From the NCBI RefSeq assembly GCF_001613465.1, contig NZ_BDCK01000016.1:124001-188000 (forward strand): a DNA stretch of 64,000 nucleotides, given 5' to 3'. Positions 11,530-32,251 of the stretch are shown here, one piece after another. The DNA is from Nocardia niwae NBRC 108934 = DSM 45340 (GTDB taxonomy: Bacteria; Actinomycetota; Actinomycetes; Mycobacteriales; Mycobacteriaceae). A model generated the notes under the pieces. The model was not told the origin of the DNA and made no database searches. It worked only from the letters and a program-made list of their open reading frames with translations. Position numbers and translations under genes: made by a program. Every line of letters starts with the position of its first letter. Positions within the stretch are counted from its first letter, which is position 1.

Positions 11530-11808
11530 ATGCTGATCGTCGCCGGATACTTGCGGGTCACCGATCGCGACCGCTACCTCGACAGCTGCCGGGAAGTCGT
11601 GGCGCTCGCCCGCGCCGCCGAAGGCTGTCTCGACTTCAGTCTCGGCGCGGATCTGCTCGAACCCGATCGGGTGAACGTCTACGAGCGCTGGACGACCCGT
11701 GCCGCGGTGGAACGCTTCCGCGGCACGGGCACCTCGGGCGAGCTCGACGCCCGGATAGTGGGCGCCGACGTCCGCGAGTTCGACTACGAGACGGAGACGC
11801 GGCTCTAG
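11530..11808 (+). CDS. putative quinol monooxygenase (ABM domain)
   Basis: A 92-residue single ABM domain: [20 protein letters not shown], then [23 protein letters not shown], the typical two halves of the ferredoxin-like fold. Such dimers can oxidise small phenols or quinols without a cofactor. Its TAG stop overlaps the stop of the convergent FadD32-like gene by 3 bp. Probably cytoplasmic. Confidence 0.82.
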
Positions 11809-13781
11809 CCGACGACCGCCGTCTCCGACTCCCACTCCTGCGGCGCGTCCGGGAATGCCTGCTGCTGGTGGCCGCCGCGCAGCGTGCCCTCCAGATAGGC
11901 GGCCCGGCAGGCGCGGCGAGCGATCTTGCCGCTGGACGTGCGCGGAATCGAACCGGCGGGCACCAGCAGCACGTCACGGACCATGACGCCGTGCCGGCGG
12001 GCGATCGCGGCGCGCACCGTGTCGGCGACCGACTCCGACTCGAGCTTGCTCGCACCGGTATTGCGCTCCGCGACGATCACCAACTGCTCGGAGGCGTCCG
12101 CGGCGTCGAACGTCAGCCCGGAGCGGCTGTCCTGTTCGAAGACCAGCGCGGGCAGTTCGTTGGCCGGCACCGAGAACGCCGCGACGAAGCCGGGGCGTAG
12201 TGCCGTGCTGGACTCCTGGGCCGAGAACTCCAGATCCTGCGGATAGTGATTGCGGCCGTCGACGATGACCAGGTCCTTGACCCGGCCGGTGATGTACAGC
12301 TCGCCGTCGAGGTAGGCGCCGAAATCGCCGGTGCGCATCCAATTGGCGTCCGGCGGCGCACCCTCCGCGTGACTACCTTCCGGCAAGCGGGTGGCCAGCT
12401 TGGCGCGGAAAGTTGCCTCGGTCTCCTCGGGGCGGCCCCAGTAGCCGATGCCCATGTTCTCGCCGTGCAGCCAGATCTCGCCGACCTCGCCGTCACGTCG
12501 CTCGACGCCGTGCTCCGGATCGACGATCACCGCCCACTGCGACAGCGCGACGTATCCGCAGGACACCTGCGCGATGGCGTTGTCGGCATCCGCGGCGACC
12601 TCGACCATCCGCCCGGCGTTCAGCTCCGCCCGGTCGACGTGGACGACCTTCGCCTTGTCCTGTGCCCTGGTGGCGGAGACGAACACCGTCGCCTCGGCCA
12701 TGCCGTAGCAGGGCTTGATCGCCGTCTCCGGCAACCCGTACGGCACGAACGCCTCGTTGAACTTCTTCATCGACGACACCGAGACCGGCTCGCTGCCGTT
12801 GATCAGCCCGATCACATTGGACAGGTCCAATTCCTCACCGGGCTTCGGCTTGCCACGCGCCGCGGCGTGCTCGAACGCGAAGTTGGGTGCCGCCGCGAAG
12901 GTCCCTGCGCCGTCGGAGGCGGCGGCCAGTTCCTTGATCCAGCGGTACGGTCGACGGACGAACGCGCTCGGCGACATGATGGTGATGAAGCCGCCACCGA
13001 CGGTCGGCAGGATCACGGCCAGTAGACCCATGTCGTGGAACAGCGGCAGCCAGGTGACCCCGCGCGAATTCTCGGTGACGCCGATGGCGTCGATCATCTG
13101 CAGCAAGTTGGTGCCCACCGCGCGGTGGGTGATCTCCACGCCCGCGGGCGTCCGGGTGGATCCCGACGTGTACTGCAGATAGGCGACGCTGTCGATGTTG
13201 ATGTCCGGACGCACCCAGGAGGCGCCGACGCTGTCCGGGATCGCCTCCACCGCGATGATGCGCGGACGCTGCGGCGGCGGCAGGTGCCGGAAGAATTTCC
13301 GCACGCCGCTCGCCGCGGACCCCGCCGTGAGGATCGCGGCGGGGGTGCAGTCACCGAGGACCGCGCGCAAGCGGTCGGTGTGGCCCTGTTCCTCCGGATC
13401 GAAGAGCGGAACGGCGATATTGCCCGCGTACACCGCGGCGAACAGCGAGACGACGTAGTCGAGCCCCTGCGGCGCGAGGATCGCCACGCGATCGCCCGGC
13501 CGCGTGACCTGCTGCAGCCGGGCCGCCACCGCGCGCAGGCGCACACCGAACTGCTGCCAGGTGAGTTCGTGGTATTCGCCGTCCCTTTCCCTGGAGTAGT
13601 CGATGAAGCGGTAGGCGAGGTCGTCGCCGTTCTCCGTGCTGTGCTTGTCGACGAAGTCGATCAGGGTCTTGTCCCCGCGAATTCTGATATTGCCCTGATC
13701 GTCCAGATAGTCGTCGAAGGTTTCGTCGATCATCGCCTTATCCTTTTCCAGCGCATCGGCACTCAGGCCGTGCAATGACAC
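11805..13781 (-). CDS. fatty acyl-AMP ligase, FadD32-like
   Basis: Activates a long-chain fatty acid as acyl-adenylate for loading on an ACP domain. The 658-residue protein follows mycobacterial FadD32 closely as I remember it: [43 protein letters not shown] (ATP loop), GNGSEPVS-like [23 protein letters not shown], and [17 protein letters not shown] with the catalytic Lys. FAAL-type enzymes lack CoA ligation because of an insertion. It lies downstream of the KasA-like gene, not of a Pks13 gene, so it may be a paralogue rather than the mycolate FadD32. Confidence 0.9.
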
Positions 13782-15092: not shown

Positions 15093-15412
15093 GTTTCGCT
15101 CACTTTCCCTAGCGTCGCTCTGGAACTTCGTCGAGCAAAAGCAATGCGCGAGCGCGCCACCAGGATCGTGGGCGGCCCGCACGGATGGCACTGGAGCGCA
15201 GGCGGATCAGCCGATCATCACGTCCGCGTGCGACCACCCTTGTGCATTATTGGAAATGCGCGTCGATCGCACGGCGTGACACGCGGACCGTACCAGGTGC
15301 CGGGGATGATGGTCGCGTGTTCGGTGTTCGCCCCGGACGACTCGAGTAACCTGCTCCCCGGGCACGGGACGCGCGGGCGGCGTCCGGTGTGGACGCGAGA
15401 AAGGGAAGGTCG

Positions 15413-16561
15413 TTGACGGGCGCGCGGATGGTCGGGCTGTTCGCGGGGATCGGCGGGCTCGAGCTCGGCCTCGGCAAGCACGGCTGGCATACCGAACTGC
15501 TGTGCGAGATCGAGCCCGGGGCGCAAGGCGTGCTCGCCGCCCGCTTCCCGGACGTACCGCTGCATTCCGACATCACCCGGCTGCGGGCCATCCCGGCGGG
15601 AACGGAGCTGGTCGCGGCCGGATTTCCGTGCCAGGACCTCTCCCAGGCGGGCCGCACCGCGGGCATCACCGGCACGCGCTCGGGTCTGGTCGACGAAGTC
15701 TTCCGGCTGGTGCGCCGCAAGCGCGGCCCGCGCTGGCTGGTGATCGAGAATGTGCCGTTCATGCTGCAGCTGGGCCGCGGCGCTGCCATGCGGCACATCA
15801 CCGGCGCGCTCGACGAACTCGGCTACACCTGGGCCTACCGTGTGGTGGACGCCCGGGCCTTCGGCCTGCCCCAGCGCAGGCAGCGGGTGGTGATGCTGGC
15901 CTCCCGCACCGAGGACCCCCGCGGGGTGCTGTTCGGCGAAGACGCCGGTCCTCGCACCATCGGCGATCCCGCGGTCGATCCGTGCGGCTTCTACTGGACC
16001 GAGGGAGTGCGCGGACTCGGCTGGGCGGTGAACGCGGTGCCCACGCTGAAGGGCGGCTCCGCGCTCGGCATCGCCAGTCCGCCCGCGGTGCGGCTGCCGT
16101 CCGGGGAGATCGTCACGCCGGGCATCGCCGACGCCGAACGCCTGCAGGGCTTCGACCCCGGCTGGACAGCGCCCGCGACCGAACTGCCGGGCATCAGGAA
16201 GGGCCACCGCTGGAAGCTGGTCGGCAATGCGGTGAGCGTGCGGATGGCGGCCTGGGTTGGGTCGCGGCTGGCCGCTCCGCTCGAGCCGGTCTCCGGCGAT
16301 CAGCCGCTGGCGCCGGGCACCCCGTGGCCGGTCGCCGCGTGGGGGCACGCCGGCGTGGCCTATCGTGTGCCGGTCTCGACCTGGCCGGTACACCAGCCGT
16401 ATGAGGATCTGGCCGGTTTCCTCACCGACGCGCAGTTGCTCTCCGCCCGCGCGACGGCCGGATTCCTCCGCCGCACCACCATGGGCAGTCTGCGATTTCC
16501 GCCGGGGTTCCTGGCCGACGTGGAAAGTCATCTGGACCGAATGGGCGGGTGGGCGGCGTGA
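15413..16561 (+). CDS. dcm: DNA (cytosine-5) methyltransferase
   Basis: C5-cytosine methyltransferase of about 382 residues. Motif I is GLFAGIGGLELGL, motif IV AGFPCQDLSQAG with the catalytic Cys, motif VI ENVPF, motif VIII FGLPQRRQRVV, and motif X VGNAVSV. The variable target-recognition region is at about 190-260. A TTG at 15413 after AAGGGAAGG is my start; ATG 15428 is an alternative. Its stop overlaps vsr by 4 bp (GTGA). No restriction enzyme gene is adjacent. Confidence 0.92.
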   Translation: MTGARMVGLFAGIGGLELGLGKHGWHTELLCEIEPGAQGVLAARFPDVPLHSDITRLRAIPAGTELVAAGFPCQDLSQAGRTAGITGTRSGLVDEVFRLVRRKRGPRWLVIENVPFMLQLGRGAAMRHITGALDELGYTWAYRVVDARAFGLPQRRQRVVMLASRTEDPRGVLFGEDAGPRTIGDPAVDPCGFYWTEGVRGLGWAVNAVPTLKGGSALGIASPPAVRLPSGEIVTPGIADAERLQGFDPGWTAPATELPGIRKGHRWKLVGNAVSVRMAAWVGSRLAAPLEPVSGDQPLAPGTPWPVAAWGHAGVAYRVPVSTWPVHQPYEDLAGFLTDAQLLSARATAGFLRRTTMGSLRFPPGFLADVESHLDRMGGWAA

Positions 16562-16983
16562 ACCGGCCTCCTACCGACGCGGCCACCAGCGCGCGGATGG
16601 CGCGCCAACGGCGCGCCGGAACCGATCCGGAGCTCGCGCTGCGCCGGGAACTGCATCGCCGCGGGCTGCGCTACTTCGTCGATCGCGCACCGATCCGGGG
16701 CCAGCGCAGGCGCGCCGACCTGGTCTTTCCCCGCCGCCGCGTCGCGGTCTATGTGGACGGCTGTTTCTGGCACCGCTGCCCGCAGCACGCCGCCGACCCG
16801 AAGAACAATGCCGAATGGTGGGCGGCCAAACTGGCGGGCAACGTGGCCCGCGACCGGGCCACCGACGCGGCGCTGACCGCGGCGGGATGGCGCGTGGTCC
16901 GCGTCTGGGAGCACGAGGACCCCGTCAGGGCGGCCGATCGCGTCCAGGCGACATTGTCAGCGGTGCCGGACCCGCACCAGTGA
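16558..16983 (+). CDS. vsr: very short patch repair endonuclease
   Basis: Nicks next to T:G mismatches that arise when 5-methylcytosine is deaminated. The 141-residue protein has ARMARQRRAGTDPELALRRE, then RADLVFPRRRVAVYVDGCFWHRCPQH (catalytic Asp, and the His and Cys zinc site) and VVRVWEHED. The GTG at 16558 overlaps the methyltransferase stop, so the pair is translationally coupled. Its end is overlapped on the other strand by the 37-residue gene at 16957-17070. Confidence 0.93.
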   Translation: MNRPPTDAATSARMARQRRAGTDPELALRRELHRRGLRYFVDRAPIRGQRRRADLVFPRRRVAVYVDGCFWHRCPQHAADPKNNAEWWAAKLAGNVARDRATDAALTAAGWRVVRVWEHEDPVRAADRVQATLSAVPDPHQ

Positions 16984-19237: not shown

Positions 19238-20989
19238 TCACGTCGGTGCGGGTTTGGTGGACGCGTTCCGGCGCTCGAGCGCGCCTGGAAACAATCCGCG
19301 ATCCTCCGCCACCCGCAACGGGACCCGATCGACGGGGACCCCTTCGACGGTGTAGCGGGCCAAGCGAGTCCCCGTTTTCGCAACGTTCGAGATGCGCTCC
19401 GGGATCAAGCATTCAACGGCGATCCCCGCTGCGCCGGCAGCCAAGTTCTTGCCGATGAGCCGGCCCGGCGCTACCGCTCCGGCGGTGACGGTCGGATCGG
19501 AGGCACTCGGGATAGGACAGATCCGCCAGATATCCCCTTTGGAGTTCGAGACCAGGTTGCCTCGCTCCTCCCAAGGCGTCACCGGCTCATCCGGTATCGA
19601 GACCAAGCCGCGAAAGAGGTTGTTGGCGCGGCCTTGGTTCACGATCTGACCGGTGTCGACGGTGAAGTCCCTGGAGAAGAAGTAGGACGGCGGCAGGCCC
19701 GCCGCACGCAGGGCCCACCAGTAATCCTCGACCAGCGGAAGGACGCTGGTGCGGATGTGCTCGGACTTTCTCGGGTCGCGGACCGACCACGCATCAGCCT
19801 GGGCGCGGATCTCGAGGATCACCGCGTCCACGTCTGCCGCAGTCGCCGCGGCCCATTCGGCCCGACGAGCGATACCCGCCGCCTTCTTCACTGTGAGGAG
19901 AGCAGCCAGGAACACCCGCTGCATATCGTTATAACCCGATTTCCGGGTGGACGAAGCGGGGTAGAGGTTCAGCCCGTAGAACCCGTTCTCGTCGAAACCC
20001 GGGTTTACCGCGTAGTACGGCCCGTCGATGTTCTCCAGGCGAAACAGCCGCCGTCGCACACCGGTCCGCAGGACCTCGTCGTTCGACATATCAGTCATCG
20101 GCGGTAGGACCGCATGACAATAGTCGGTGGGCGGCAGATCGAAGATGGGGCTCGCCGCTGTGGGCGTGCCGTCCGGCGCACACCGGTCGTCCAACCCCGT
20201 TATCCGTGCCGTCGACGGGACCTCGGAGACCGGATCTGCGGACACGAGCAGATGCGGACCACAGCGAATCCGGTGCCGCCCGTCCACGAAGTCCTCGACG
20301 ACCTCGGCATTGTCCACCAGCGGCGCGAAACGCAGTTCGACGCATGTTCGCTCGCGCACCGGCGCTACCGCGGTGAACCGTGGCGAGTATGTACGCAGCG
20401 CATTCGCGAAATCGAGCAGGTACTCCCGCCGCGCCCCCGGTCGGCGTGATTCGGCGGCCGCCGTATACGACCAGGTCCACGGGGTGAACGAAAACCGGAC
20501 GCCGGCGAGAGATTCGTACGGGAGGGTGGCGAGCGCGCTGTGCATCTCCTGCAGCCGAACGTTCGACCGCGAGAATCCTACCGTGGTAATGCGGACGCCA
20601 CAGCCGAGTTCAGCCGAGCACAGCCGCACGTAATCGAGTAGTTCAGAATAGGAGCCGATATCGTTGTCGATATAGGGGAAGAGCACCTTCTTCTTGTGCG
20701 TTCGCTCACTCGCGATGGCAAGCCCCCGTTCCGCCGCAATCGTGCGCAGCGCCCAGATCAATGCCCGAAGCGAGCTGTTCGGGAACTCCCACACCACATT
20801 CGCGGCGTGCTGGCTACAAAATGCACATCTGTTGAAGCAGCCTATTTGCGGCTGGAAATATTGTAGTCGAGTGAGCGCGTCGTCCGGCACCGATCGCAGG
20901 CGCTCCAGGATCTGGTCCCGTTGTCTGATGTCATCGCTCGCAAGTTTTTCCGGAGTCTCGTCTCGCAGCAGATAGTAGGTGGCAATCAC
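19238..20989 (-). CDS. radical SAM enzyme of the RiPP-like cluster
   Basis: About 583 residues. GCFNRCAFCSQH at roughly residues 50-61 is the C-x3-C-x2-C site that binds the 4Fe-4S cluster and S-adenosylmethionine. The rest shows the radical SAM barrel, but I see no SPASM or twitch cysteine array, only scattered Cys (ICPIPS, VECLIP). GTG 20989 is chosen because GGAGATGAGG lies just before it and it clears the upstream stop; an in-frame ATG at 21013 would overlap. It is the last gene of the cluster. The substrate could be a peptide or a sugar. Confidence 0.85.
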   Translation of the reverse strand: MIATYYLLRDETPEKLASDDIRQRDQILERLRSVPDDALTRLQYFQPQIGCFNRCAFCSQHAANVVWEFPNSSLRALIWALRTIAAERGLAIASERTHKKKVLFPYIDNDIGSYSELLDYVRLCSAELGCGVRITTVGFSRSNVRLQEMHSALATLPYESLAGVRFSFTPWTWSYTAAAESRRPGARREYLLDFANALRTYSPRFTAVAPVRERTCVELRFAPLVDNAEVVEDFVDGRHRIRCGPHLLVSADPVSEVPSTARITGLDDRCAPDGTPTAASPIFDLPPTDYCHAVLPPMTDMSNDEVLRTGVRRRLFRLENIDGPYYAVNPGFDENGFYGLNLYPASSTRKSGYNDMQRVFLAALLTVKKAAGIARRAEWAAATAADVDAVILEIRAQADAWSVRDPRKSEHIRTSVLPLVEDYWWALRAAGLPPSYFFSRDFTVDTGQIVNQGRANNLFRGLVSIPDEPVTPWEERGNLVSNSKGDIWRICPIPSASDPTVTAGAVAPGRLIGKNLAAGAAGIAVECLIPERISNVAKTGTRLARYTVEGVPVDRVPLRVAEDRGLFPGALERRNASTKPAPT

Positions 20990-20996
20990 CCGTACC

Positions 20997-22049
20997 TCAT
21001 CTCCCCACGGCATCGGATAAACACTGCACTACCCGATCCATATCCTGTCGTGACATTCGTGCGTGCAAAGGAACACGCAGCACGGTGTTCCGCGCCGCAT
21101 CGGCGACAGGCGGTAACCCGACACCCGGGATCGCATCCACCCCCCTGGCCGATATCCCATTACCGTTGAGCGCTCGTTCGGCGAGTCCGCGTCGATGGGC
21201 CGAATCGAAACGGAGCAGAGCGGACGTCCAGGTACCCTCGCATCCCGGCGCACTCGCCAGCAATTCGACATCCGGAACTTCGACCAGTCGCTCGGCATAA
21301 CCGGCGGCGAGTCGCCGGCGCACATCGACAATCGCGGGCAAGCGATCGAGTTGCGCATTTGCCATCGCTGCGGTGATATCGCTCATCCCCAGCTTCGGAT
21401 AGCCCTCGACCGGATAGTTCTCGCTTGTGCCGTGCTGGGTCCATGCCAGCAATCCGCCTTCGCCGGTCGTCATGCTTTTGGTGGCATTCAAGCTGAAGAT
21501 GCCGAAGTCACCGTCGCGTCCAACCGGCCCCCCGCGCGTCGCGCCACCGAATACAGACGCGCAATCCTCGATCAACGGAATGCTCGCATGGTCGCACAGC
21601 GAACGAATCGGCTCGATATCACCGACAAGTCCGCCGTAGTGCACGAACACCACCGCCCCGGTACGTTCGGTGAGGCATTCCGCCACCGCACCCGGCGCCA
21701 GTGCCAGCGTGTCGGTTGTCAAGTCGGCAAATACCGGAGTTCCGCCGACGAAGCGGATGACGTCGACAACTCCCTCGCAAACAATCGGAGTTGTGACGAC
21801 CTCACGTCGGTCTCCGCGCAAGACCTGCCGCAGCGCGATCCACAGCGCAATGCTGCCGGAACACGTGGCGAAGGTGCGCCGACCGAGCACTGCGCTCGTT
21901 CTCGACTCGAATGCAGCGACCTCCGCACCGGCGGCTATCCATCCCGACCCGATAGCACGCGCCACAGCGGAGACATCGACATCGGTCACGTCCGGCCGGA
22001 ACAGCGCGATATCCCAGTCAGTATCGGACACGATGGAAATGCCTTCCAT
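20997..22049 (-). CDS. DegT/DnrJ/EryC1 aminotransferase, copy 2
   Basis: PLP enzyme that aminates keto-sugars or similar compounds. ATCSGSIALWIALR binds PLP phosphate, IPLIEDCASVFGG carries the cofactor Asp, and SLNATKSMTTGEGG the Schiff-base Lys. At 350 residues it is slightly short for the family. It overlaps the deacetylase-like gene by 32 bp and leads into the radical SAM gene. The product is likely an amino-sugar or amino group on the cluster's product; sequence does not show which. Confidence 0.9.
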   Translation of the reverse strand: MEGISIVSDTDWDIALFRPDVTDVDVSAVARAIGSGWIAAGAEVAAFESRTSAVLGRRTFATCSGSIALWIALRQVLRGDRREVVTTPIVCEGVVDVIRFVGGTPVFADLTTDTLALAPGAVAECLTERTGAVVFVHYGGLVGDIEPIRSLCDHASIPLIEDCASVFGGATRGGPVGRDGDFGIFSLNATKSMTTGEGGLLAWTQHGTSENYPVEGYPKLGMSDITAAMANAQLDRLPAIVDVRRRLAAGYAERLVEVPDVELLASAPGCEGTWTSALLRFDSAHRRGLAERALNGNGISARGVDAIPGVGLPPVADAARNTVLRVPLHARMSRQDMDRVVQCLSDAVGR

Positions 22050-22734
22050 ACCAATTATGCGGATGCGTCAGGACGTAGACGAGGGGTCGTCGATCCGCCA
22101 ATTGCGCACACAGGCAGCGCTCATCGTCCGTCAATACGCCGCGGTCGAACCGCCGCCACCGGCCGAGGCTGTCGGTGATGTATTGCGCCGTATGGAAGAG
22201 ATCGAGTGGCTCGCGTCCGTAAGCTTCGTAGGCGAAGCCGTGGGCGGCAGGGTCGACGGCTGACAAGAAATCCAGATTGTTGTCCCGCGTCTGATCGCGA
22301 TGACTCGCGATACCGGGCGGCTTGTCGGTCCCCGCGAGCAACCGGAATATCGCCAGTTGGAGTTCCAGCGCCTGCTCGCGCGGGACCCCGGTCGCGGACT
22401 CGTAGTCGAGTGGCTCCGCATGCAAGCCGATTTCGTGCCCCGCCGCCTGCAGATCTTTGATCAGGCTGTACACCTCGTAACCGAATACGTTGTAGCCGTT
22501 CGCCGAGACTCGCCAGAAATACGTTGCCGGTATGCCGAGCGCATTCTCGATCTCGGCGAATTTCGCCGCCCGGTCGGGCGCCTCGTCCACATCGTGCCGC
22601 AGCACGACGGTCCGGTCGCCCGTTGTCGCGCCGATCAGGTCGGCGCACCGGCTGAACTCGTAACCCATATCTACCGCGAGCCGGAGGCAGTCGGCGTAAT
22701 GCGCGAAAGTAAAATCACAGTCGCGGTCAACCAT
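22018..22734 (-). CDS. polysaccharide-deacetylase-like (NodB-fold) protein
   Basis: A 238-residue protein with TVVLRHDVDEAPDRAAKFAEI, matching the metal-binding Asp motif of the NodB fold (HDVD variant), PATYFWRV and AGHEIGLHAE, which supplies His. No signal peptide is present, so the substrate should be cytoplasmic: an N-acetylated sugar nucleotide or a glycosylated intermediate rather than cell-wall polymer. Overlaps the neighbours at both ends (8 bp and 32 bp), indicating one operon. Confidence 0.78.
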   Translation of the reverse strand: MVDRDCDFTFAHYADCLRLAVDMGYEFSRCADLIGATTGDRTVVLRHDVDEAPDRAAKFAEIENALGIPATYFWRVSANGYNVFGYEVYSLIKDLQAAGHEIGLHAEPLDYESATGVPREQALELQLAIFRLLAGTDKPPGIASHRDQTRDNNLDFLSAVDPAAHGFAYEAYGREPLDLFHTAQYITDSLGRWRRFDRGVLTDDERCLCAQLADRRPLVYVLTHPHNWYGRHFHRVRY

Positions 22735-23776
22735 GGGACATCACCTGCAGAGGGTAAGCCGCAACGAGTTCACGCATCCACGGCGAATGGTCGCGTGCCA
22801 CCTTGCCGGAAGCGATCGCACGACGCAGCGAGCGAATATTGCTGTAGGCGTCGTTCTCGATGTCTGCTATGGCCCCGGCCCGCACGGCGTCCGCTATTTC
22901 CGCAATACCCTGTTCGATCGTCCGGGTCTTCCGATAGCCGAGCTCGGCCAGCCGCCGGAAATCGACGCGGTAACTCCGCCGATCCTCGTTGTCCGCGGTA
23001 TCGCCGAAGTGCACTGTCGCACCGGATACCGCTCTGATCCGCGCCGCGAGGTCGGCGATGGTGAGGTTGTCGTCGTCTGCACCGACGTTGATCGGTCCGA
23101 CGTAGCCCGACGACATCAGCAACTCCACGCTTCTGGCGATATCGAGGACGTGGACGAATGGCCGCCACTGCCCGCCGCCGCGCACCTCGAGCGCGATGCC
23201 CGCGGCCGCCCTAGCGCTCATCAGATTCACCACGGTGTCCAGCCTGGGCCGATGCGACAGCCCGAACGCGGTGCCGAAACGTGGGAACGCACAGGCCGTC
23301 CGGCCGGTCAACATCCCACCGACGACTCGCTCGATTCCGAGCTTGGTGGCGGCGTACACACCGATCGGGCATGCCGTCGACGTCTCGTCGACCACAGCCG
23401 CCTCCGCGCCGTAGACGCTGCATGTAGACGCCGCGACGAAAACCGGAATCCGCAACTCGTCGACCACCTGGGCAGCGCCGATGACACTGGTGTAGGTCAG
23501 CTCTACGGCGAGATCGACATCGACCTGGCAGGCCGGTTCGCCTACCAGCCCGCCCATATGAATGCAGGCGTCGACGCCACGCAGGACCTCCGTCAACGAA
23601 CTCTTCGACCGATAGTCGGCATGGATCAGTTCGATGTCGCCCGAGCTCATCTCCTCGCTCCAACGATGTCCGTACATGAAGTTGTCGACGGCCCGCACGG
23701 TATGGCCCGAGCCGGCCAGATATCCTGCGATGGCGCTGCCCAGATAGCCGCCCCCGCCCAGCACTGTGACTTTCAT
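22727..23776 (-). CDS. NAD-dependent sugar epimerase/dehydratase A
   Basis: Extended SDR of 349 residues. MKVTVLGGGGYLGSAIAGYL is the Rossmann motif, HMGGLVGEPA follows the central sheet, and GVYAATKLGIERV holds a Tyr-x3-Lys pair (YAATK). Start ATG 23776 gives a native N-terminus and an ATGA overlap with the preceding gene. Probably acts on a nucleotide sugar feeding the two aminotransferases and glycosyltransferases. Exact reaction not visible. Confidence 0.88.
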   Translation of the reverse strand: MKVTVLGGGGYLGSAIAGYLAGSGHTVRAVDNFMYGHRWSEEMSSGDIELIHADYRSKSSLTEVLRGVDACIHMGGLVGEPACQVDVDLAVELTYTSVIGAAQVVDELRIPVFVAASTCSVYGAEAAVVDETSTACPIGVYAATKLGIERVVGGMLTGRTACAFPRFGTAFGLSHRPRLDTVVNLMSARAAAGIALEVRGGGQWRPFVHVLDIARSVELLMSSGYVGPINVGADDDNLTIADLAARIRAVSGATVHFGDTADNEDRRSYRVDFRRLAELGYRKTRTIEQGIAEIADAVRAGAIADIENDAYSNIRSLRRAIASGKVARDHSPWMRELVAAYPLQVMSHG

Positions 23777-24792
23777 ACTCGTGCTTTCTCTGCGATGAGC
23801 CGCAGCCATGTCGGAATCGCGGAAGGATTCGCACTCATCCAATCCACGTACTGCCGCACGCCGTCGGAGAAGGTGATGCCGGGGCGCCAGTTCAGGACCT
23901 TCCGGCATACTTCGGTATCCGCGACACCGCCTTTCGGGTCACCTTCCGGCATGTCCGTCGATGTCACCGTCATCGCCGGAAAGTACTCCGCCAACTCGGT
24001 GACCACGTCTCTGATGGCCGTGGCCTGCCCGGTACCGATGTTCAGAATCCGGCCGGCCGCGCTATCGGTCACCGCTGCCCGGATCGTGCCTTCCACGATA
24101 TCGCCGAGATGCGTGAAATCACGAATTTGATGACCGCCACCGTTCAGCTCGATCGGCAGGCCCAGCATCGCACGCATAACGAATATCGCGACCGCCCAAC
24201 TGTGGCTGCCTTCCTTGGGAATCTGCGGCCCACCGTATACGCTGAAGTAGCGCACTACCGCGGTGTGTTCAGGAGCCGCCTTCGTCAGCGCGATCTCCTC
24301 TCCCGCCAGTTTCGATCTGCCGTACTCGGAGATCGGATCGGGAGCATCGGATTCAGCGAAGACCTGCGGTCCGCTGCCGACCACCCCGTTGCCGTACACA
24401 CTCGCACTGGACACAAACACCGCTTTGGACACTCCGGCGCGGCGTGCGGCGGCCAACACCGTCGCCGTACCCCGCACATTCACGTCCTCGCATTCGCCCG
24501 GCATCCGTGTACATGCGGCGACATCAGCAAGCGCCGCCGCATGTATCACTACATCCCGACCTCGCAGTGCAGCCTCCACAACATCGCTGTCGCGGACATC
24601 GCCGCGGACGAGCGCTATATCGGCGTCGCTGTCGAACAGATACCGCCTGCTCTCCGCTGGATACGCACTGAGATTGTCGAATGCCGTCACTCGCCCGCCC
24701 GCTCTGGCGATTGTGCGGCAGATCGCTCCGCCGACCAGCCCGGCCCCTCCGGTCACCAGGAAATTCATATCTCGAACATCGACTGCGCTCAT
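23773..24792 (-). CDS. NAD-dependent sugar epimerase/dehydratase B
   Basis: Extended SDR of 339 residues with FLVTGGAGLVGGAICRTIA, VFVSSASVYG (catalytic Ser region), and ISEYGRSKLAGEE (YxxxK). GGGHQIRDFTHLGDIVEG is the GalE-like substrate loop. It is distinct from epimerase A rather than a recent duplicate. Translationally coupled on both sides (4-bp overlaps). Likely makes or converts a UDP- or dTDP-sugar. Confidence 0.9.
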   Translation of the reverse strand: MSAVDVRDMNFLVTGGAGLVGGAICRTIARAGGRVTAFDNLSAYPAESRRYLFDSDADIALVRGDVRDSDVVEAALRGRDVVIHAAALADVAACTRMPGECEDVNVRGTATVLAAARRAGVSKAVFVSSASVYGNGVVGSGPQVFAESDAPDPISEYGRSKLAGEEIALTKAAPEHTAVVRYFSVYGGPQIPKEGSHSWAVAIFVMRAMLGLPIELNGGGHQIRDFTHLGDIVEGTIRAAVTDSAAGRILNIGTGQATAIRDVVTELAEYFPAMTVTSTDMPEGDPKGGVADTEVCRKVLNWRPGITFSDGVRQYVDWMSANPSAIPTWLRLIAEKARV

Positions 24793-25760
24793 TGCTCAAC
24801 CTTCTTCTGCAGACCGTCCGCAATTCTGCTGAATTCGGCGACAGTTAGTTTCTCCGTGAAGAAGAATGGCACCATCAGCACCGAAACATCGTTCGTCGAC
24901 CGATAGAATTCCGTGAGGCACCGGACGCCCTCTTCGGTGATCATGTAGGGCTTGCTGTGCGGTAGATGCACCGTGACCGCGCGCGCCAGGAAAAGCGGCG
25001 AGACCTCCGCCACCCGCAAGCGGTAACCGAATTCGAGATCCGCGTACCATCCGGTCGGGTCGAACAGTGTATTGACGCCACCCACATCATGGAACAATGA
25101 CTTGGGCAGCGAATGGTTGCCGTACCGCATCGCCAGCCAGCCAGCCGAATCACTTTGGAAACGGCCGGATTTGATGACCGCTTCGATATCGCGATAGACG
25201 GCGGGCTTTTTCGACATCATCTTGATGGCGTCGAACCGGTCGCGGACATCGGCAACCGACAGCCGGAACTCGTCCAGCTGCAACAGGTCGACGAGTGTGC
25301 TCTCGCCGGGACGTGAAACGAACGCCGAATGAACCTCGCCGGTGATGACGTCACGAACCGCCGCCGCCTGCCAGCAGTACAGCTCCCGCCCCACCGCCAC
25401 GGTCGGCTTTCGAGTCTCTCGATGCGCCTCGATATGACGCCGCAGCAAGTCCGTGTCGGCGAGGTTGTCGTCAATGGCCAGGAACAACAGCTCGGACCGT
25501 GCCGCCGCGGCGGCCGCGTTGTAGGCGGAGCACATCCCGGCCGGATCCTGACGTATCACCCGCAGATTGCTCGCGGCCACGCCCCAGGCCGCGAACATGT
25601 CCGAGATCGGTTCGTCGCTGCCATCGTCGACCAGGATGATCTCGTAGCGGTCCGAGTCGATGTCCTGGCGCAGCAAGGTCTCGATAGTCAGCCGAAGCCG
25701 GCTCGGGCCCTGGTGTTCGTCGTTGATCCGGCATGGCAAAAGCACGGACAGCTCAGTCAT
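24789..25760 (-). CDS. GT2 glycosyltransferase, copy 2
   Basis: A 323-residue GT-A fold enzyme: ELSVLLPCRINDEHQGPSRL, then YEIILVDDGSD for nucleotide binding, and LFLAIDDNLAD at the DxD position. It is a clear paralogue of the gene at 34783-35775: the N-terminal phrase, GMC.AYN.AAAA, VGRELYCW/FCW and DPTGWYADLE are shared. ATG 25760 is chosen by alignment with that copy. Its unusual start motif LLPCRIN is not typical of cell-wall GT2 enzymes. Confidence 0.88.
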   Translation of the reverse strand: MTELSVLLPCRINDEHQGPSRLRLTIETLLRQDIDSDRYEIILVDDGSDEPISDMFAAWGVAASNLRVIRQDPAGMCSAYNAAAAAARSELLFLAIDDNLADTDLLRRHIEAHRETRKPTVAVGRELYCWQAAAVRDVITGEVHSAFVSRPGESTLVDLLQLDEFRLSVADVRDRFDAIKMMSKKPAVYRDIEAVIKSGRFQSDSAGWLAMRYGNHSLPKSLFHDVGGVNTLFDPTGWYADLEFGYRLRVAEVSPLFLARAVTVHLPHSKPYMITEEGVRCLTEFYRSTNDVSVLMVPFFFTEKLTVAEFSRIADGLQKKVEQ

Positions 25761-26037
25761 CGTCGTCGGCTTCCTCGAGGAACAGTTCATCGATGAGCCT
25801 GGCGACGAATTCCCGCACATCCGCGAGTGCGTCATCGAGGGAGACGTCGTACTCCTGGTTCAGCAGGGCGGCGATCTGGCTAAGGTCCTTGGTGCCATCG
25901 CAGGCGTTCCAGATCAGCTCACTGGTTTCGTTCAGCACATACGCTCGGCTGCGGCGCACGATCTCCAGTTGGCCGTCGGGCCTGCGCCGCGACGACGCGC
26001 CCAGCGCCTTGACAGGTACCCGCGAGGTCAGCTCCAT
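25753..26037 (-). CDS. PqqD-like RRE protein (peptide-binding)
   Basis: A 94-residue stand-alone PqqD-fold protein. The pattern EIVRRSRAYVLNETSELIW, then DGTKDLSQIAALLNQEYDVS, and a C-terminal acidic tail is that of the RiPP recognition element, a winged helix that holds a precursor leader for the tailoring enzymes. The ATG at 26037 overlaps the nucleotidyltransferase stop by 10 bp. Encoded two genes after the 23-residue peptide. PqqD-like proteins also occur in some exopolysaccharide clusters, so the RiPP reading is inference. Confidence 0.85.
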   Translation of the reverse strand: MELTSRVPVKALGASSRRRPDGQLEIVRRSRAYVLNETSELIWNACDGTKDLSQIAALLNQEYDVSLDDALADVREFVARLIDELFLEEADDDD

Positions 26038-26852
26038 CGCACGACCACCGTCTCGAGCAGAGCACGGCACGTGCGCAGGTCTCGCGCGATTGCGCGACGG
26101 CCATCGGCCCCTTCGGCCGGCCCCCCGAGGATGATCGGCACAAGGCGATCGTTCACTGTCGAATCGAGCGCCCGCCGCATGCGCCGCACGATCCATTTGT
26201 CTTTGGCTCGCGACGAAAGGTATCCGCTGTCCAGAACCAAGGCGTTGCCGGTGTGGCTCGCGGCGATCCGTATCGAGATGGTCGCGGATTCCAGATCGCC
26301 GGATTCCAGCAGTCCCGCGGCATCTTCGAGGGCAGCGTTGGCCGTCATCCAGTCGCGGATCTTCAAAGCCTCTCGCAGGCCGCTGTCCAGCATGCGCGCT
26401 CTCAGCTCCTCGAAGGCATCCGCACCGATGACCGCAGTTCCGGTGCACAGTCTGCAGGCGAACTCCGCCTCATCGTCGGAGAGCGCACCGAATCGGCCAC
26501 TGCGACCAGCGCGCGATATATGGTCGAGCACTGTTTCGAAATGGCTTGTGGTCCACTCTTCGACATCCCAGCGACAGTCTTCCGCTTCGATGATCCGGAT
26601 ATTCACCGGATCTCGCATGGCGGGCAACCACAGATACTGCGTTGCGGATTCCGCAGAAGTATATTCCGGCACGATGGCGTAGAGATCGATATCGCTTTCC
26701 GCGTGCGCGAAGCCCTCGACCGCCGAGCCGCTCGCGTAGACTGCCACGGCGGACGACGCGAAGTCGAGACGCGCAAGGACTTCAGTTGGATCGAGAGTCA
26801 ACAATATACTGATCCGTTCTCGTCGTTCTATTTCGGAACTGCGCGGGTGCAT
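26028..26852 (-). CDS. MNT-type nucleotidyltransferase domain protein
   Basis: About 274 residues. AVAVYASGSAVEGFAHAESDIDLYAIV is the GS...S-D-I-D-L core of polymerase-beta-like nucleotidyltransferases, with the two metal-binding Asp. The C-terminal part is helical, with DAAGLLESGDLESATISIRI. ATG 26852 is used; a GTG at 26891, 9 bp after the upstream peptide stop, is also in frame. It could adenylylate or otherwise nucleotidylate an antibiotic, sugar or peptide. Confidence 0.78.
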   Translation of the reverse strand: MHPRSSEIERRERISILLTLDPTEVLARLDFASSAVAVYASGSAVEGFAHAESDIDLYAIVPEYTSAESATQYLWLPAMRDPVNIRIIEAEDCRWDVEEWTTSHFETVLDHISRAGRSGRFGALSDDEAEFACRLCTGTAVIGADAFEELRARMLDSGLREALKIRDWMTANAALEDAAGLLESGDLESATISIRIAASHTGNALVLDSGYLSSRAKDKWIVRRMRRALDSTVNDRLVPIILGGPAEGADGRRAIARDLRTCRALLETVVVRWS

Positions 26853-26899
26853 CTCGCGATACACCCGCGCAGGCCAGGCCTGACATAGCACAGCCTGAA

Positions 26900-26971
26900 T
26901 CAGATGACCGGGACAGGGTTCAACCCTCGGGTCAATTCCGGCTTCTTGTAAGACTTCCGCACGATCTGCAT
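26900..26971 (-). CDS. candidate 23-residue RiPP precursor peptide 1
   Basis: ATG at 26971, preceded by AAAGGAGGTGA, an almost perfect Shine-Dalgarno at ideal spacing. The product begins MQIVRKSYKKPELTRG and ends in PVPVI. The segment Y-x-x-P-x-L-x-x-G resembles the leader motif (YxxPxLxxxG) that RRE domains bind in actinobacterial lasso peptides and related RiPPs, and a PqqD-like gene follows shortly after. Only seven residues follow the Gly, very short for a core, so it might be a leader-like or regulatory peptide. Confidence 0.55.
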   Translation of the reverse strand: MQIVRKSYKKPELTRGLNPVPVI

Positions 26972-27022
26972 GATTCACCTCCTTTCGCTGTCGAAGTCGT
27001 TTCCCGGTTGGAAACGCGGAGG

Positions 27023-28171
27023 TCAGATGCGATGCGCGTGCAGGACTTCTCCGATGACATCCGACACGCGATCGACCTCTTCCGGCGACAGCCCGCCGTG
27101 CATGGGAATACTGAAAATATTCGCCGCGACAGCCTTCGCCACAGATTTTCCTCTGGTGTGCAGCCGGGCATTTCGGTAGAAAGGCTGACTGCTGATCGGC
27201 ACGAAATGAATCGACGTTCCAATGCCCCGGACACGCAGTTCCTCGATGAATCTGTCGCGCCCGCACCGCACCTGGGCGGGGTTCAGCTCCACCATGTACA
27301 GATGCCAGCCGTGCGTGACCTCGGGAGCAGTGCTCGGCAGCCTGAGGCCGGACGATGCGCCGAGGGCAGCGTCATACCGCTTCGCGACTTCGTGTCGATT
27401 CCGCTGCATTCCGGAAAGGCGATCGAGCTGAGCCAAGCCGACAGCCGCCGACATACTCGGCATATTGAACTTCAGCCCGGGTGCGACCACCTCGTAGTAT
27501 GGGTTACTACCGTCGATTCGACCGGCCAACGTTTTCCGGATTCCGTGGTTCGCGAGCAATCTGGCGGCACCGAGATTCTCCTCGGTAGATATCAATATCC
27601 CGCCCTCGCCAGTGGTCATGTTCTTGTTCGCATAGAAACTGAAAGCGGCCCATTCACCGAAGGAGCCGACCGGCATGCCCTTGTACCGCGCCCCGATCCC
27701 GTGCGCCGCGTCCTCGATGATGAAAAGGCCTTTGGCCCTGGCAATTTCGCGTAAGGCGTCCATATCGTCCGGATGCCCCGCCATGTGAATCGGCATTATC
27801 GCTTTGGTCCGCGACGTCACCGCGGCTTCGACCAGTTCGACATCGAGTCGCAGGTAGGGCAACGTCACGTCGACGAGCACGGGGGTGGCCCCGCACGCGG
27901 CGATGACATTCGCGGTGGCCGCGAAGGTGTAGTCACTGGTGATGACCTCGTCTCCCGGACCTACGCCGGCAGCGCGCAGTGCGAGAAACAATGCTGCGGT
28001 GGCGTTCGAGACCGCGATCGCGGGCCGGTCCCCGATGATGGCGGCGAACTTCTTCGTGAACTCCTCGGTGACCGGTCCGCTGGTGAGCCAGCCGGATTCG
28101 AGCACCCGCAGTACAGCCGCCTTCTCCGCTTCGCCGACCACCGGTTTGCTGAACGGTATGAATCCTGCCAT
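27023..28171 (-). CDS. DegT/DnrJ/EryC1 aminotransferase, copy 1
   Basis: A 382-residue PLP sugar aminotransferase. FIPFSKPVVGEAEKAAVLRV starts the fold, VSNATAALFLAL binds cofactor, LFIIEDAAHGIGA carries the Asp, and FYANKNMTTGEGG the Schiff-base Lys. ATG 28171 gives the usual N-terminus. It is full length and more canonical than the copy at 20997-22049. Located 51 bp upstream of the 23-residue peptide gene and 7 bp after the methyltransferase. Confidence 0.92.
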   Translation of the reverse strand: MAGFIPFSKPVVGEAEKAAVLRVLESGWLTSGPVTEEFTKKFAAIIGDRPAIAVSNATAALFLALRAAGVGPGDEVITSDYTFAATANVIAACGATPVLVDVTLPYLRLDVELVEAAVTSRTKAIMPIHMAGHPDDMDALREIARAKGLFIIEDAAHGIGARYKGMPVGSFGEWAAFSFYANKNMTTGEGGILISTEENLGAARLLANHGIRKTLAGRIDGSNPYYEVVAPGLKFNMPSMSAAVGLAQLDRLSGMQRNRHEVAKRYDAALGASSGLRLPSTAPEVTHGWHLYMVELNPAQVRCGRDRFIEELRVRGIGTSIHFVPISSQPFYRNARLHTRGKSVAKAVAANIFSIPMHGGLSPEEVDRVSDVIGEVLHAHRI

Positions 28172-28178
28172 CGGTCGA

Positions 28179-29006
28179 CTATCGACCCGGCTTGTGCATG
28201 ACGTACACGAACTGTTCGGACAGATGATCCGAGATGTCATCGACCGGATGCGAGTCGGCTTCGATCGCGAGGGCGTGCATCTTGCCGGCGACCTCGACCT
28301 GCTTGTTCGCGATGAGATGGCGCACCACAGTCGTCGCCGGGCTGCCGTAGATCTCGGAGACAGTCATCCCACAGTCGACGAGCCTCCCGAGCACATGTTT
28401 GGTCGGCACCACATTGCAGAGGTAACCATTGGGCTGTTGTTGTTTCGAACGGAAGGGGTTGTCCGCGTCCCCGGCGAGAAATACGCTGTTTTCGCTGTTG
28501 ACCTCGAGCACGAGAGTTCCGCCGGGCGCGCACATCCGAACCAGATCGGCCAAGAATGAATCCAGGGCCTCCGGTGGAAGATGTTCGACCAACCCGAGGC
28601 ACGCGACGATGTCGAAGCTGCCGGCATAGCCGGGCCTATCGACAACGCTGAGTGCGTCGCCCTGGACGGTTTCCACCCGGACGGCGTGTTCAGCGGCCGT
28701 GCGACGAAGAACATCGAGCATTTCGTTCGACACATCCACACAGGTCAATTCGCCGCCTCGGCGCGCGAGCCCGATCGAAATCCGCCCGACACCGCACCCG
28801 ATATCCAAGATCCGTAAGCCCGAGATATCCTCCGGTAGGGCCCGTGCGAGCACTACCCGATGCCACTCGTCATAGGTGTTATTCCACTCGGTCGATCTAT
28901 TGAAAGCCAGAACGGCCTCCAGATTGTCCCGAGCTGCGGGAAGACGGGTCCTTCCCCAGTACTCGGCAGCCAGCGCCGACGAGTATTCGTGTACCACTTC
29001 CACCAT
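28179..29006 (-). CDS. SAM-dependent methyltransferase
   Basis: Class I methyltransferase of 275 residues: ILDIGCGVGRISIGLARRG (SAM motif I), ELTCVDVSNEML (motif II acidic residue), SFDIVACLGLVEHL, and GGTLVLEVNSE. First gene of the third transcription unit, with GGGGAGAT upstream and a 130-base leader that carries repeats. It probably methylates the sugar or peptide product; C-, N- or O-selectivity cannot be told. Confidence 0.9.
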   Translation of the reverse strand: MVEVVHEYSSALAAEYWGRTRLPAARDNLEAVLAFNRSTEWNNTYDEWHRVVLARALPEDISGLRILDIGCGVGRISIGLARRGGELTCVDVSNEMLDVLRRTAAEHAVRVETVQGDALSVVDRPGYAGSFDIVACLGLVEHLPPEALDSFLADLVRMCAPGGTLVLEVNSENSVFLAGDADNPFRSKQQQPNGYLCNVVPTKHVLGRLVDCGMTVSEIYGSPATTVVRHLIANKQVEVAGKMHALAIEADSHPVDDISDHLSEQFVYVMHKPGR

Positions 29007-29061
29007 GATTCAATCTCCCCTATCGAATGCCAGGTCCCCCGGTTGAAGTGGATGCCGCCTG

Positions 29062-29085
29062 GCTGCAGAAGCGTGACCCTGCAGC
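29062..29085 (-). promoter_or_regulatory. hairpin in methyltransferase leader
   Basis: Perfect 7-bp stem GCTGCAG/CTGCAGC with a 10-base loop, inside the untranslated leader between the predicted start of transcription and the methyltransferase ATG. No T-run follows, so it is not a clear terminator. Confidence 0.4.
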
Positions 29086-29088
29086 GGT

Positions 29089-29122
29089 TTGCCTATCCCT
29101 CCGGCTTGCCTATCCCTCCGGC
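29089..29122. repeat. 17-bp tandem direct repeat in leader
   Basis: TTGCCTATCCCTCCGGC occurs twice head to tail (29089-29105 and 29106-29122), followed by a degraded third unit TATCACTCCGGC (29123-29134). On the transcribed strand each unit contains GGAGGGATA, which resembles a ribosome site but has no start codon after it. Confidence 0.85.
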
Positions 29123-29145
29123 TATCACTCCGGCGTTCTGATTCG

Positions 29146-29174
29146 AATCTAGATCGGGAACTGCCGGTTCTCAA
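29146..29174 (-). promoter_or_regulatory. promoter A, upstream of methyltransferase unit
   Basis: TTGAGA (29169-29174) and TAGATT (29146-29151) on the minus strand, separated by 17 bp. It lies 42 bp downstream of the palindrome at 29217-29231. Predicted transcription start is near 29139. Confidence 0.55.
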
Positions 29175-29216
29175 CCCGATTGTGGACTTTTCCGCAGGTC
29201 GAGCGCCATTAATTCA

Positions 29217-29231
29217 TGTCCGGTGCGGACA
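29217..29231. promoter_or_regulatory. operator-like palindrome A
   Basis: TGTCCG-GTG-CGGACA, a perfect inverted repeat with a 3-bp spacer. One of three copies in the cluster, each in a gap upstream of a group of genes. Confidence 0.65.
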
Positions 29232-29265
29232 CTCGTCGTAAGCCGGCCGAATGACGCCGAACCGG

Positions 29266-29898
29266 TCAAGCCGACAGACCCCAATCCTCCAGCAGGCCGG
29301 TCAGCTCACGTAAGCGCGCCGGCGTCAACTCCTTACGCGCGGAATCTTCCGCGGAATCCTGCGTGGCACTGTAATGCCACCAGGACTTCTGTCGATCGAA
29401 GACCAATGAACGGTCTTTGACGGCGGGCCCGCGGATGACCAGCGAAACCGTGTTCGGCTCGGCGGCCACCGCATGGACTACCGAGTGGTGCAGGACGTAG
29501 CCGTCACCCGGTCCCTCATGCCGTGCGTGAACGATCGGCGGCATGACTCCCTTCGGCGCGTCGCCGTACACCAGATGCCGATACCCACCCCTGAGGATCG
29601 AGGTCGCGAACGTCCACCGATGATTGTGTGGCAGATCCGCGTGACCAGGAAGAAAAACATGCAGCCTGACCCTGATGCCCGACTCTGCGTCCGAGTACAG
29701 GATGAGCTTGTCCACGGAATAGCGTTCCTGGTGCTCGCACAAGCGAAGTAGTTCGGGCCGCGCCGGTATTTGCCGCAGCGCGGCAGCGAGGATGTCCGGA
29801 CGCCCGGCGATCTGCGCGAGCGCCGCTCCCGCCTGACGCTGGACCGCGCCGATATCTTCCCAGTCGAGTGAGCGCAGCGGCTCGATTATCTCGTCCAT
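29266..29898 (-). CDS. cupin-like protein
   Basis: A 210-residue protein with a helical N-terminus and a beta-rich C-terminal part. VFLPGHADLPHNHRWTFATSI supplies an H-x-H metal motif, and YVLHHSVVHAVAAE the second His region of a cupin barrel. It could be a non-haem iron dioxygenase (cysteine-dioxygenase-like) or a sugar isomerase. ATG 29898 is preceded by GAGGGGG. Last gene of the transcription unit that begins at 32133. Confidence 0.68.
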   Translation of the reverse strand: MDEIIEPLRSLDWEDIGAVQRQAGAALAQIAGRPDILAAALRQIPARPELLRLCEHQERYSVDKLILYSDAESGIRVRLHVFLPGHADLPHNHRWTFATSILRGGYRHLVYGDAPKGVMPPIVHARHEGPGDGYVLHHSVVHAVAAEPNTVSLVIRGPAVKDRSLVFDRQKSWWHYSATQDSAEDSARKELTPARLRELTGLLEDWGLSA

Positions 29899-29905
29899 AT
29901 CCCCC

Positions 29906-30715: not shown

Positions 30716-30741
30716 GCGTATCTCCTCTTACCTGTGCACGA

Positions 30742-30780
30742 GGTGGGGCGGGCCCGGTCAGGCGAATGGCTCGCCCCACC
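30742..30780 (-). promoter_or_regulatory. stem-loop after peptide gene 2
   Basis: 9-bp perfect stem GGTGGGGCG/CGCCCCACC with a 21-base loop, just downstream of the 25-residue peptide gene and before the next gene. No T-run follows on the minus strand, so it likely acts as a partial terminator or RNA stabiliser, which would raise peptide mRNA over downstream genes. Confidence 0.6.
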
Positions 30781-30787
30781 CGATCCG

Positions 30788-30865
30788 CTACTGAGACTTC
30801 ACGGATTTCTTCGCCTTCTTCGACTTCTTCCTACGGATCGTAAAAATCGGACCAGCTGCGCCCAT
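30788..30865 (-). CDS. candidate 25-residue Lys-rich peptide 2
   Basis: ATG 30865 follows AGGAGGTGAT, matching the anti-Shine-Dalgarno sequence over ten bases, 9 bp away. The product is MGAAGPIFTIRRKKSKKA followed by KKSVKSQ. Nine of 25 residues are Lys, most coded AAG. Both neighbours are close (32 bp upstream, 72 bp downstream with a stem-loop). An overlapping frame from ATG 30870 encodes a 22-residue Arg-rich peptide at tighter spacing. It does not match ribosomal proteins bS22 or bL37. It may be a precursor peptide or a carrier for modification. Confidence 0.55.
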   Translation of the reverse strand: MGAAGPIFTIRRKKSKKAKKSVKSQ

Positions 30866-30897
30866 CGCATATCACCTCCTCCCTCCCATCACCTTTC

Positions 30898-32133: not shown

Positions 32134-32161
32134 CCCCCACGTTCACGTTTCGGTCTGCGTC

Positions 32162-32191: not shown

Positions 32192-32231
32192 CCACCTTGT
32201 CGCCTTTTCCCAGATCAGCGCGGGTCGATTA

Positions 32232-32248: not shown

Positions 32249-32251
32249 CGG

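Follow-up and report, generated by a model that had tools for sequence, protein, structure and literature searches.

The window analysed here, 64,000 nucleotides of Nocardia niwae NBRC 108934 (contig NZ_BDCK01000016.1), carries at 19238-20989 on the minus strand a gene whose product is, as judged from its relatives and its predicted fold, a radical S-adenosylmethionine (radical SAM, RS) enzyme whose family has no curated model in Pfam or NCBIfam. We lean towards a single-cluster enzyme that lacks an auxiliary cluster and acts on a nucleotide or nucleotide-(amino)sugar. What it remodels is probably a small molecule bearing phosphate and not a peptide. Such a substrate is favoured because of the genes that neighbour the family, ten invariant Arg, Lys or His residues, and the place of the gene in a core shared with PqqD-free clusters.

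The radical SAM protein and its family

The RS gene and its motif are placed as follows, and residue numbers throughout follow the 591-residue reading.
19238-20989, minus strand: RS protein; GTG start at 20989, alternative ATG at 21013
20816-20839, minus strand: CxxxCxxC motif CFNRCAFC, residues 59-66

From the ATG the open reading frame (ORF) spans 19238-21013 and encodes 591 residues; from the GTG, which has a GGAG/GAGG ribosome site upstream and is probably the true start, it encodes 583. Cysteines occur at positions 59, 63, 66, 132, 138, 224, 251, 278, 299, 499 and 535. The single CxxxCxxC (C59/C63/C66) follows the first predicted strand (residues 50-53), and so lies in the first barrel loop. 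These three Cys residues were identical in 23/23 aligned family members from three phyla, while no other Cys was fully invariant. Because of this conservation, a chance motif is ruled out. C499 and C535 are the only Cys of the last 250 residues, as the preliminary description had it, and neither is invariant in the family. The alignment (A3) holds 23 full-length members; L017, L030 (broken frame), L032 and L002 (fragments) were left out, and the RS protein of genome G1284 was included in the tree only.

The window protein gave no Pfam match even at E<=10 and no NCBIfam match at E<=1. Searches of PDB sequences returned chance matches only, both for the protein (best, pyruvate dehydrogenase X component, E 1.1) and for the family profile (best, a pilin, E 0.21). 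Eight of the 23 members matched PF04055 (Radical_SAM) weakly at E<=1, with a best E of 0.0015. It is these matches of its relatives, together with the predicted fold, that place the protein among radical SAM enzymes, not its own sequence alone. No SPASM or twitch model was among the families matched at E<=1 by the 23 members in Pfam (12 families listed) or NCBIfam (three listed). The three NCBIfam models were all weak: holo-acyl carrier protein synthase (three members), RS P-methyltransferase (NF038361, one member, E 0.028) and EfeO (one member). With no extra invariant Cys and no SPASM model matched, a SPASM/twitch identity is ruled out for the window branch, and the earlier claim that no auxiliary cluster domain is visible was borne out, as was that of a CxxxCxxC near the N-terminus. 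No NCBIfam model of sugar or aminocyclitol RS enzymes (BlsE, BtrN, DesII, AprD4 type) was matched, nor any PDB sequence beyond chance. Apart from the weak NF038361 match, the profile search for a characterised sugar-modifying or SPASM subgroup, which the preliminary description had proposed, was thus empty in Pfam and NCBIfam.

Structure prediction, also proposed there, gave the RS fold class. The AlphaFold2 model built on the 23-member alignment had a predicted local distance difference test score (pLDDT) of 81.7 and a predicted template modelling score (pTM) of 0.85, and all 50 entries listed by a second-look aligner were RS enzymes by title. The best was EpeE (Z 11.1 over 233 residues), and others included SuiB (5v1q, 10.1), BlsE (10.0), BtrN (9.3), viperin (9.2), DesII (8.7), PqqE (6c8v, 8.5) and AprD4 (6.4). 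By the predicted order of strands, the barrel seems to be interrupted by residues 228-446, which are rich in strands at first and then form long helices. Modelled alone (pLDDT 83.6), this region gave nothing at E<=0.001 in Foldseek and a weak best Z of 4.5, with no clear fold match, which does not by itself make it a new fold.

The family is rare in Actinomycetota and is also present in uncultured Bacilli. At E<=0.001 none of 35 congeners or of 24 other genomes in the order had it (1/60, the window itself), and only the window itself was found among 396 genomes of the same phylum. One full-length relative, probably from Streptomyces, was found among 392 genomes (46% in the genome search, 43% by BLASTP); of the four that passed E<=0.001 there, three were dropped as weak partial matches of 66-77 residues. 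The family occurred in 1/296 genomes of the class of G838 (G838 itself) and in 2/200 of the order of G835, one being the search centre; G1284 was found in this last search. Contigs from 84,980 species, each represented by one genome, were scanned with exact short motifs demanded, so that more distant kin were missed. The single window protein as query gave no locus, and a two-sequence alignment gave 24: seven from Streptomyces, one from Catellatospora, one each from a Gemmatimonadaceae and a Berkelbacteria metagenome-assembled genome (MAG), and 14 from uncultured Bacilli-type MAGs, of which one bears no label but bacterium. Fragments of the family were seen on a Streptomyces globosus plasmid (L002 14983-15501) and in S. 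turgidiscabies (L032 9746-10393).

In the tree, the RS proteins of the window, of S. sulphureus (L009) and of G1284 formed one clade (support 96/94), and the Bacilli clade was distant (branch 2.27). Six Cys of the Bacilli branch (72, 132, 224, 458, 486 and 525 in window numbering) were kept in 12 or 13 of its 13 members, and at 72, 458, 486 and 525 none of the 10 non-Bacilli members of the alignment had Cys. An extra metal site at these conserved residues is possible, in the Bacilli branch only.

Gene neighbourhoods and the likely substrate

Gene context was counted over 24 intact members, namely the 23 aligned ones and G1284. A P-loop nucleotide-kinase-like gene lay in the same neighbourhood in 9/24 (that of the window lies 13 kb from the RS gene, in the same gene island), a NUDIX gene lay near the RS gene in six, an ATP-grasp homologue directly upstream in six, and a NADAR protein directly downstream in 12. 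The earlier suggestion of a sugar or small-molecule substrate is favoured by these recurrent neighbours, by the UDPGP gene described below and by the nucleotide-sugar type of the window island.

In the Bacilli loci, by BLAST groups, LysR lay upstream of the RS gene in 13/13 intact members, and a NADAR homologue downstream in 12/13. The downstream ORF had the length of a NADAR-DHH fusion (~425-435 residues) in 10 of these 12 loci and that of NADAR (~147 residues) in L024 and L027. Pfam, run on L018 alone among these loci, identified NADAR fused to a DHH domain (11623-12906). The exception, L020, has NUDIX and guanylate-kinase-like genes downstream in place of NADAR. Five Bacilli loci also have a small conserved protein of ~70-90 residues close to the RS operon (among them L023 13026-13286, L031 10092-10307 and L020 3514-3795).

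Elsewhere, in actinomycetes and two MAGs, an ATP-grasp homologue lay directly upstream in L010, L011, L012, L014, L015, L016 and L017; Pfam named ATP-grasp in L017 only (E 2.8e-7), and L012 gave no ATP-grasp match. NUDIX lay directly downstream in L010, L011, L012, L015, L016 and L017. Thymidylate-kinase-like genes were matched in L010 (E 1.7e-22) and weakly in L012 (E 3.2e-4), with homologues of the latter in L011, L015 and L016. In the Gemmatimonadaceae contig (L014), a UDPGP (UDP-sugar pyrophosphorylase) gene lay directly downstream (E 7e-56). NUDIX genes were few over whole genomes: five genomes of 6.6-9.5 Mb had 22, 50, 28, 26 and 34, and two small ones had 9 and 8, so that by hand estimate a NUDIX gene within a kilobase would be a ~1-2% event per locus.

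The protein itself also fits such a substrate. Of 15 charged residues invariant in the family, ten are Arg, Lys or His (R104, H106, R141, H158, R228, R357, R366, K376, R462 and R484), which would suit an anionic, phosphate-bearing molecule. BlsE, BtrN and DesII act on sugars, aminocyclitols or sugar nucleosides, and the window protein resembles them in fold (7vob, 4m7t and 8hzv; 187-241 aligned residues, Z 8.7-10.0). Identity to them is 9-12%, however, and the window protein has ~215 extra residues (228-446). BtrN has an auxiliary cluster, whereas the window protein has no invariant cysteines for one. It likewise shares the RS fold with the PqqE/SPASM maturases (PqqE Z 8.5, SuiB Z 10.1), and its island has a PqqD gene too, but the auxiliary-cluster cysteines of these enzymes are missing and PqqD is not kept with the family.

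Several observations weigh against a nucleotide or nucleotide-sugar substrate, or against the comparisons on which it is based. Fold scores do not part sugar from peptide enzymes, the top rows being the peptide enzymes EpeE and SuiB, and Foldseek alone gave nothing at E<=0.001, with unrelated folds among its best rows and alanine racemase first. The neighbours differ between clades (NADAR in Bacilli, NUDIX and ATP-grasp elsewhere), and L003 and L013, two relatives from Streptomyces, belong to no such neighbour group. The window protein sits on a long branch (1.53), and in nearly all tree rows the letter composition departs from the model. Finally, the window island itself carries PqqD and a likely short peptide.

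The island, its PqqD protein and short peptides

The RS gene stands at one end of an island, 19238-35775, whose other genes are:
20997-22049, minus strand: DegT/DnrJ/EryC1 aminotransferase b (PF01041, E 6.9e-54)
22018-22734, minus strand: NodB-like polysaccharide deacetylase (PF01522, E 0.0033, below cut-off; 44% to both sister clusters)
22727-23776, minus strand: NAD-dependent epimerase/dehydratase B (PF01370, E 1.2e-26; start placed by reading)
23773-24792, minus strand: NAD-dependent epimerase/dehydratase A (PF01370, E 2.7e-45)
24789-25760, minus strand: GT2 glycosyltransferase a (PF00535, E 7e-13; start with ribosome site)
25753-26037, minus strand: PqqD-family protein, 94 residues (PF05402, E 4.1e-15)
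26028-26852, minus strand: NTP_transf_2 nucleotidyltransferase, 274 residues (PF01909, E 0.0011, below cut-off)
26900-26971, minus strand: pepA, short ORF of 23 residues, MQIVRKSYKKPELTRGLNPVPVI, candidate precursor peptide; AGGAGGTGA ribosome site
27023-28171, minus strand: DegT aminotransferase a (PF01041, E 2.4e-112; start placed by reading)
28179-29006, minus strand: SAM-dependent methyltransferase (PF13649, E 5.1e-22)
29266-29898, minus strand: protein of unknown family, cupin-like by eye; ribosome site at 29898, longer ORF 29266-30288 without Pfam match
29906-30715, minus strand: protein of unknown family, 269 residues, GNAT-like by eye, no Pfam match
30788-30870, minus strand: pepB, short ORF of 23 or 25 residues in two overlapping frames; second AGGAGGTGA site
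30898-32133, minus strand: NTP_transf_5 nucleotidyltransferase (PF14907, E 2.3e-7, 0.1 bit under cut-off)
32252-32908, minus strand: WbqC-like protein (PF08889, E 1.6e-40)
32905-34137, minus strand: major facilitator superfamily (MFS) transporter (PF07690, E 2.9e-16)
34125-34766, minus strand: thymidylate-kinase-like P-loop kinase (PF02223, E 6.1e-7; 43-45% to both sister clusters; start placed by reading)
34783-35775, minus strand: GT2 glycosyltransferase b (PF00535, E 3.4e-12)

The island has 62.5% GC, compared to 68.6% in the rest of the window, and ends ~500 bases before tRNA-Arg and tRNA-Ser genes. These features and its absence from congeners suggest that it was gained horizontally. Elsewhere in the window, a DNA cytosine methyltransferase gene followed by a Vsr-like nuclease gene (15389-16983, plus strand) and a bacterial nitric oxide synthase oxygenase-like protein (40883-42232, plus strand) were noted by eye.

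Eight genes were common by BLAST to the island and to its two sister clusters, both actinobacterial, in S. sulphureus (L009) and G1284 (L041/L042): those for the kinase, two epimerases (38-47% identity), methyltransferase (36-38%), deacetylase, RS protein (41-45%) and DegT aminotransferases (30-44%; DegT b 30-32%). By Pfam, NTP_transf_5 is a ninth. The WbqC and GT2 genes of the window were matched by BLAST in G1284 only, not in S. sulphureus. The G1284 cluster has extra genes for an acyl carrier protein (ACP), a pyridoxal phosphate-dependent decarboxylase, an acyl-CoA dehydrogenase and an AMP ligase; a condensation-like protein had Pfam support in L009 only, that of G1284 giving no match.

On the nucleotide-sugar reading, the RS enzyme would hold one SAM-binding [4Fe-4S] cluster, without an auxiliary cluster, and would abstract hydrogen from a nucleotide or nucleotide-(amino)sugar. 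The small molecule would then be rearranged, coupled or oxidised; epimerisation, dehydration, oxidation and coupling are all candidate reaction types. The two epimerases, two DegT aminotransferases, deacetylase, methyltransferase and kinase would build an aminosugar moiety, which the GT2 enzymes would then transfer. PqqD, the nucleotidyltransferase and the short peptide would form a separate module.

The preliminary description had offered, as its other option, a peptide-modifying subgroup relying on the separate PqqD protein, and such dependence is disfavoured. A PqqD profile of four sequences, that of the window included, found none in the DNA around 27 other RS family loci, some of them on short contigs. 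PF05402 was matched in 4/8 family-bearing genomes, with no match at E<=0.01 in the other four; in S. sulphureus and G1284 the distance between PqqD and the RS gene was 254 kb and 1.46 Mb, respectively. On these results, the RS enzyme would generally have no need of PqqD.

The island product may still be linked to a peptide. With both strands of the 64 kb searched, the 9-mer AGGAGGTGA is present at two sites, where composition predicts ~0.4 (hand estimate). Both sites lie inside the island, each just ahead of an unannotated short ORF, pepA or pepB. PqqD-type domains bind a YxxPxL motif in lasso peptides, and pepA contains SYKKPEL; only 3/355 ORFs of 18-60 residues in the window have YxxPx[LIVMF]. 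The pepA ORF lies between DegT a and the NTP_transf_2 nucleotidyltransferase, and PqqD is the next gene after the latter. At E<=1e-6, a search of 296 genomes in the phylum matched this nucleotidyltransferase only to itself, and its relatives were found on four plasmid records, L044, L045, L046 and L047 (tblastn 4e-14 to a Streptomyces plasmid protein adjoining PqqD). No plasmid relative was found for the kinase.

Three of these records, the Streptomyces plasmids L044, L045 and L047, resemble the island in having PqqD, a homologue of the nucleotidyltransferase (29-32%) and a 22-23-residue YxKP peptide; pepA aligns with their 22-residue peptides at YxKP. Their 22-residue ORFs, which begin M(R/Q)KYxKP (starts at 15675, 2920 and 9368, respectively), stand just before an asparagine-synthase-like gene. 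These loci also have an MFS gene and a diiron oxygenase; neither the asparagine-synthase-like protein nor the oxygenase was identified in the island. L044 adds aminocyclitol-type genes (inosamine-phosphate amidinotransferase and inositol monophosphatase). In L046, which has no annotation, PqqD was seen by eye and no 22-residue YxKP peptide was found. It is the resemblance of pepA to these peptides that keeps a peptide-linked product in view.

One form this could take, which we rate as unlikely, is an aminosugar product that is built on, or attached to, a PqqD-held ribosomal 23-residue peptide, with the RS radical step on the nucleotide-sugar part. The sister clusters would then swap in a carrier module like that of nonribosomal peptide synthetases: ACP and AMP ligase in G1284, the condensation-like protein in S. 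sulphureus. A scan of the sister clusters for short ORFs gave 11 candidates, none with YxxP; only two were on the cluster-gene strand, one of 22 residues upstream of the decarboxylase gene (L041 9883) and one within an ABC gene (L042 4998).

That the RS enzyme modifies the pepA (or pepB) peptide itself, presented by the stand-alone PqqD, strikes us as quite unlikely. PqqD does lie in the same row of genes, separated from the RS gene by five others; pepA has a near-perfect ribosome site and shares YxxPxL with the three Streptomyces peptides, and the best predicted-fold neighbours of the RS protein are peptide enzymes. However, PqqD stands beside no other family member in the DNA examined, the two sister clusters included, and two of the three Streptomyces peptide loci have no RS gene in the stretch shown, where the PLSDB gene tables are incomplete. 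The third, L047, has a different RS protein near PqqD (P0003, 1564-3360, minus strand, 598 residues, CxxxCxxC at ~residue 204). It aligned to the window protein only around the Cys motif (BLASTP 24.6 bits, hhalign probability 15%).

Other reactions considered, and significance

TunB of tunicamycin biosynthesis couples a nucleoside and a nucleotide sugar by radical C-C bond formation. A similar coupling in the island, followed by pyrophosphate removal, deacetylation and glycosyl transfer, is rather improbable, in our judgement. The essential tunicamycin genes are tunA, B, C, D, E and H (PMC6105854), and tunB, a radical SAM gene of 337-340 codons, lies amid epimerase, glycosyltransferase and deacetylase genes (PMC6965331). 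The island has several gene kinds of the essential set, namely epimerase, RS, glycosyltransferase and N-deacetylase (PMC6965331, PMC6105854). NUDIX or DHH hydrolases recur beside the RS family, and TubG is a NUDIX protein that acts in a nucleoside antibiotic pathway (PMC6112128). Against this, TunB has 337-340 residues compared to 583 in the window protein, the likeness drawn is one of gene kinds and pathway logic, and no nucleoside-specific, NUDIX or DHH gene was identified in the island.

We consider it very unlikely that the family consists of nucleotide salvage or damage-control enzymes, with a later recruitment to biosynthesis in the window. The Bacilli operon, LysR - RS - NADAR(-DHH), does occur in MAGs of ~1.5 Mb with no biosynthetic cluster beside it by eye. 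NADARs are described as suggested N-glycosidases of riboflavin intermediates and as enzymes that reverse guanine ADP-ribosylation (PMC11125620). The Bacilli clade is nevertheless distant and has extra conserved Cys, so that its function may differ.

A viperin (pVip) identity in defence had no match in PADLOC, where three RS family members tried (P0001, the window protein; L012; L018) gave nothing at E<=1. Viperin has a single RS cluster and a genomic link to nucleotide kinases, and it and viperin-like enzymes (5vsm, 6q2p) share the RS fold with the window protein (Z ~9), but its conserved motifs are others and it has ~260-290 resolved residues, not 583. PADLOC did match neighbours of the RS genes: PDC-M42C (NADAR-DHH), PDC-S07 (NUDIX) and, more weakly, PDC-M51B and VakA (L012 kinase).

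The family has no name, and the open-licence literature was searched with the names of its neighbours; nothing recognisable as the family appeared in the titles and abstract starts among the matches listed. No paper there joined radical SAM, NADAR and gene neighborhood, nor radical SAM, ATP-grasp, Nudix, thymidylate kinase and biosynthetic gene cluster, nor prokaryotic viperin, nucleotide kinase and radical SAM. By titles and abstract starts, the one paper that holds both radical SAM and WbqC was unrelated, and none with radical SAM and NADAR dealt with the two as a pair. Neither RS nor NADAR was found in a preprint on riboflavin degradation in the gut.

Missed by current models, members of the RS family are annotated as hypothetical or lost, along with the clusters that they mark. 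Because kinase, NUDIX, ATP-grasp and NADAR genes recur beside it, the family points to a class of substrates that can be tested, and it provides a natural setting in which to compare RS enzymes with a possible second metal site and those without one. The short peptides in loci with PqqD, which have no annotation, are a lead towards an unusual pathway of peptide plus sugar. If the sugar product is indeed built on such a peptide, the island would represent a peptide-scaffolded route to sugar metabolites with an RS enzyme free of auxiliary clusters.

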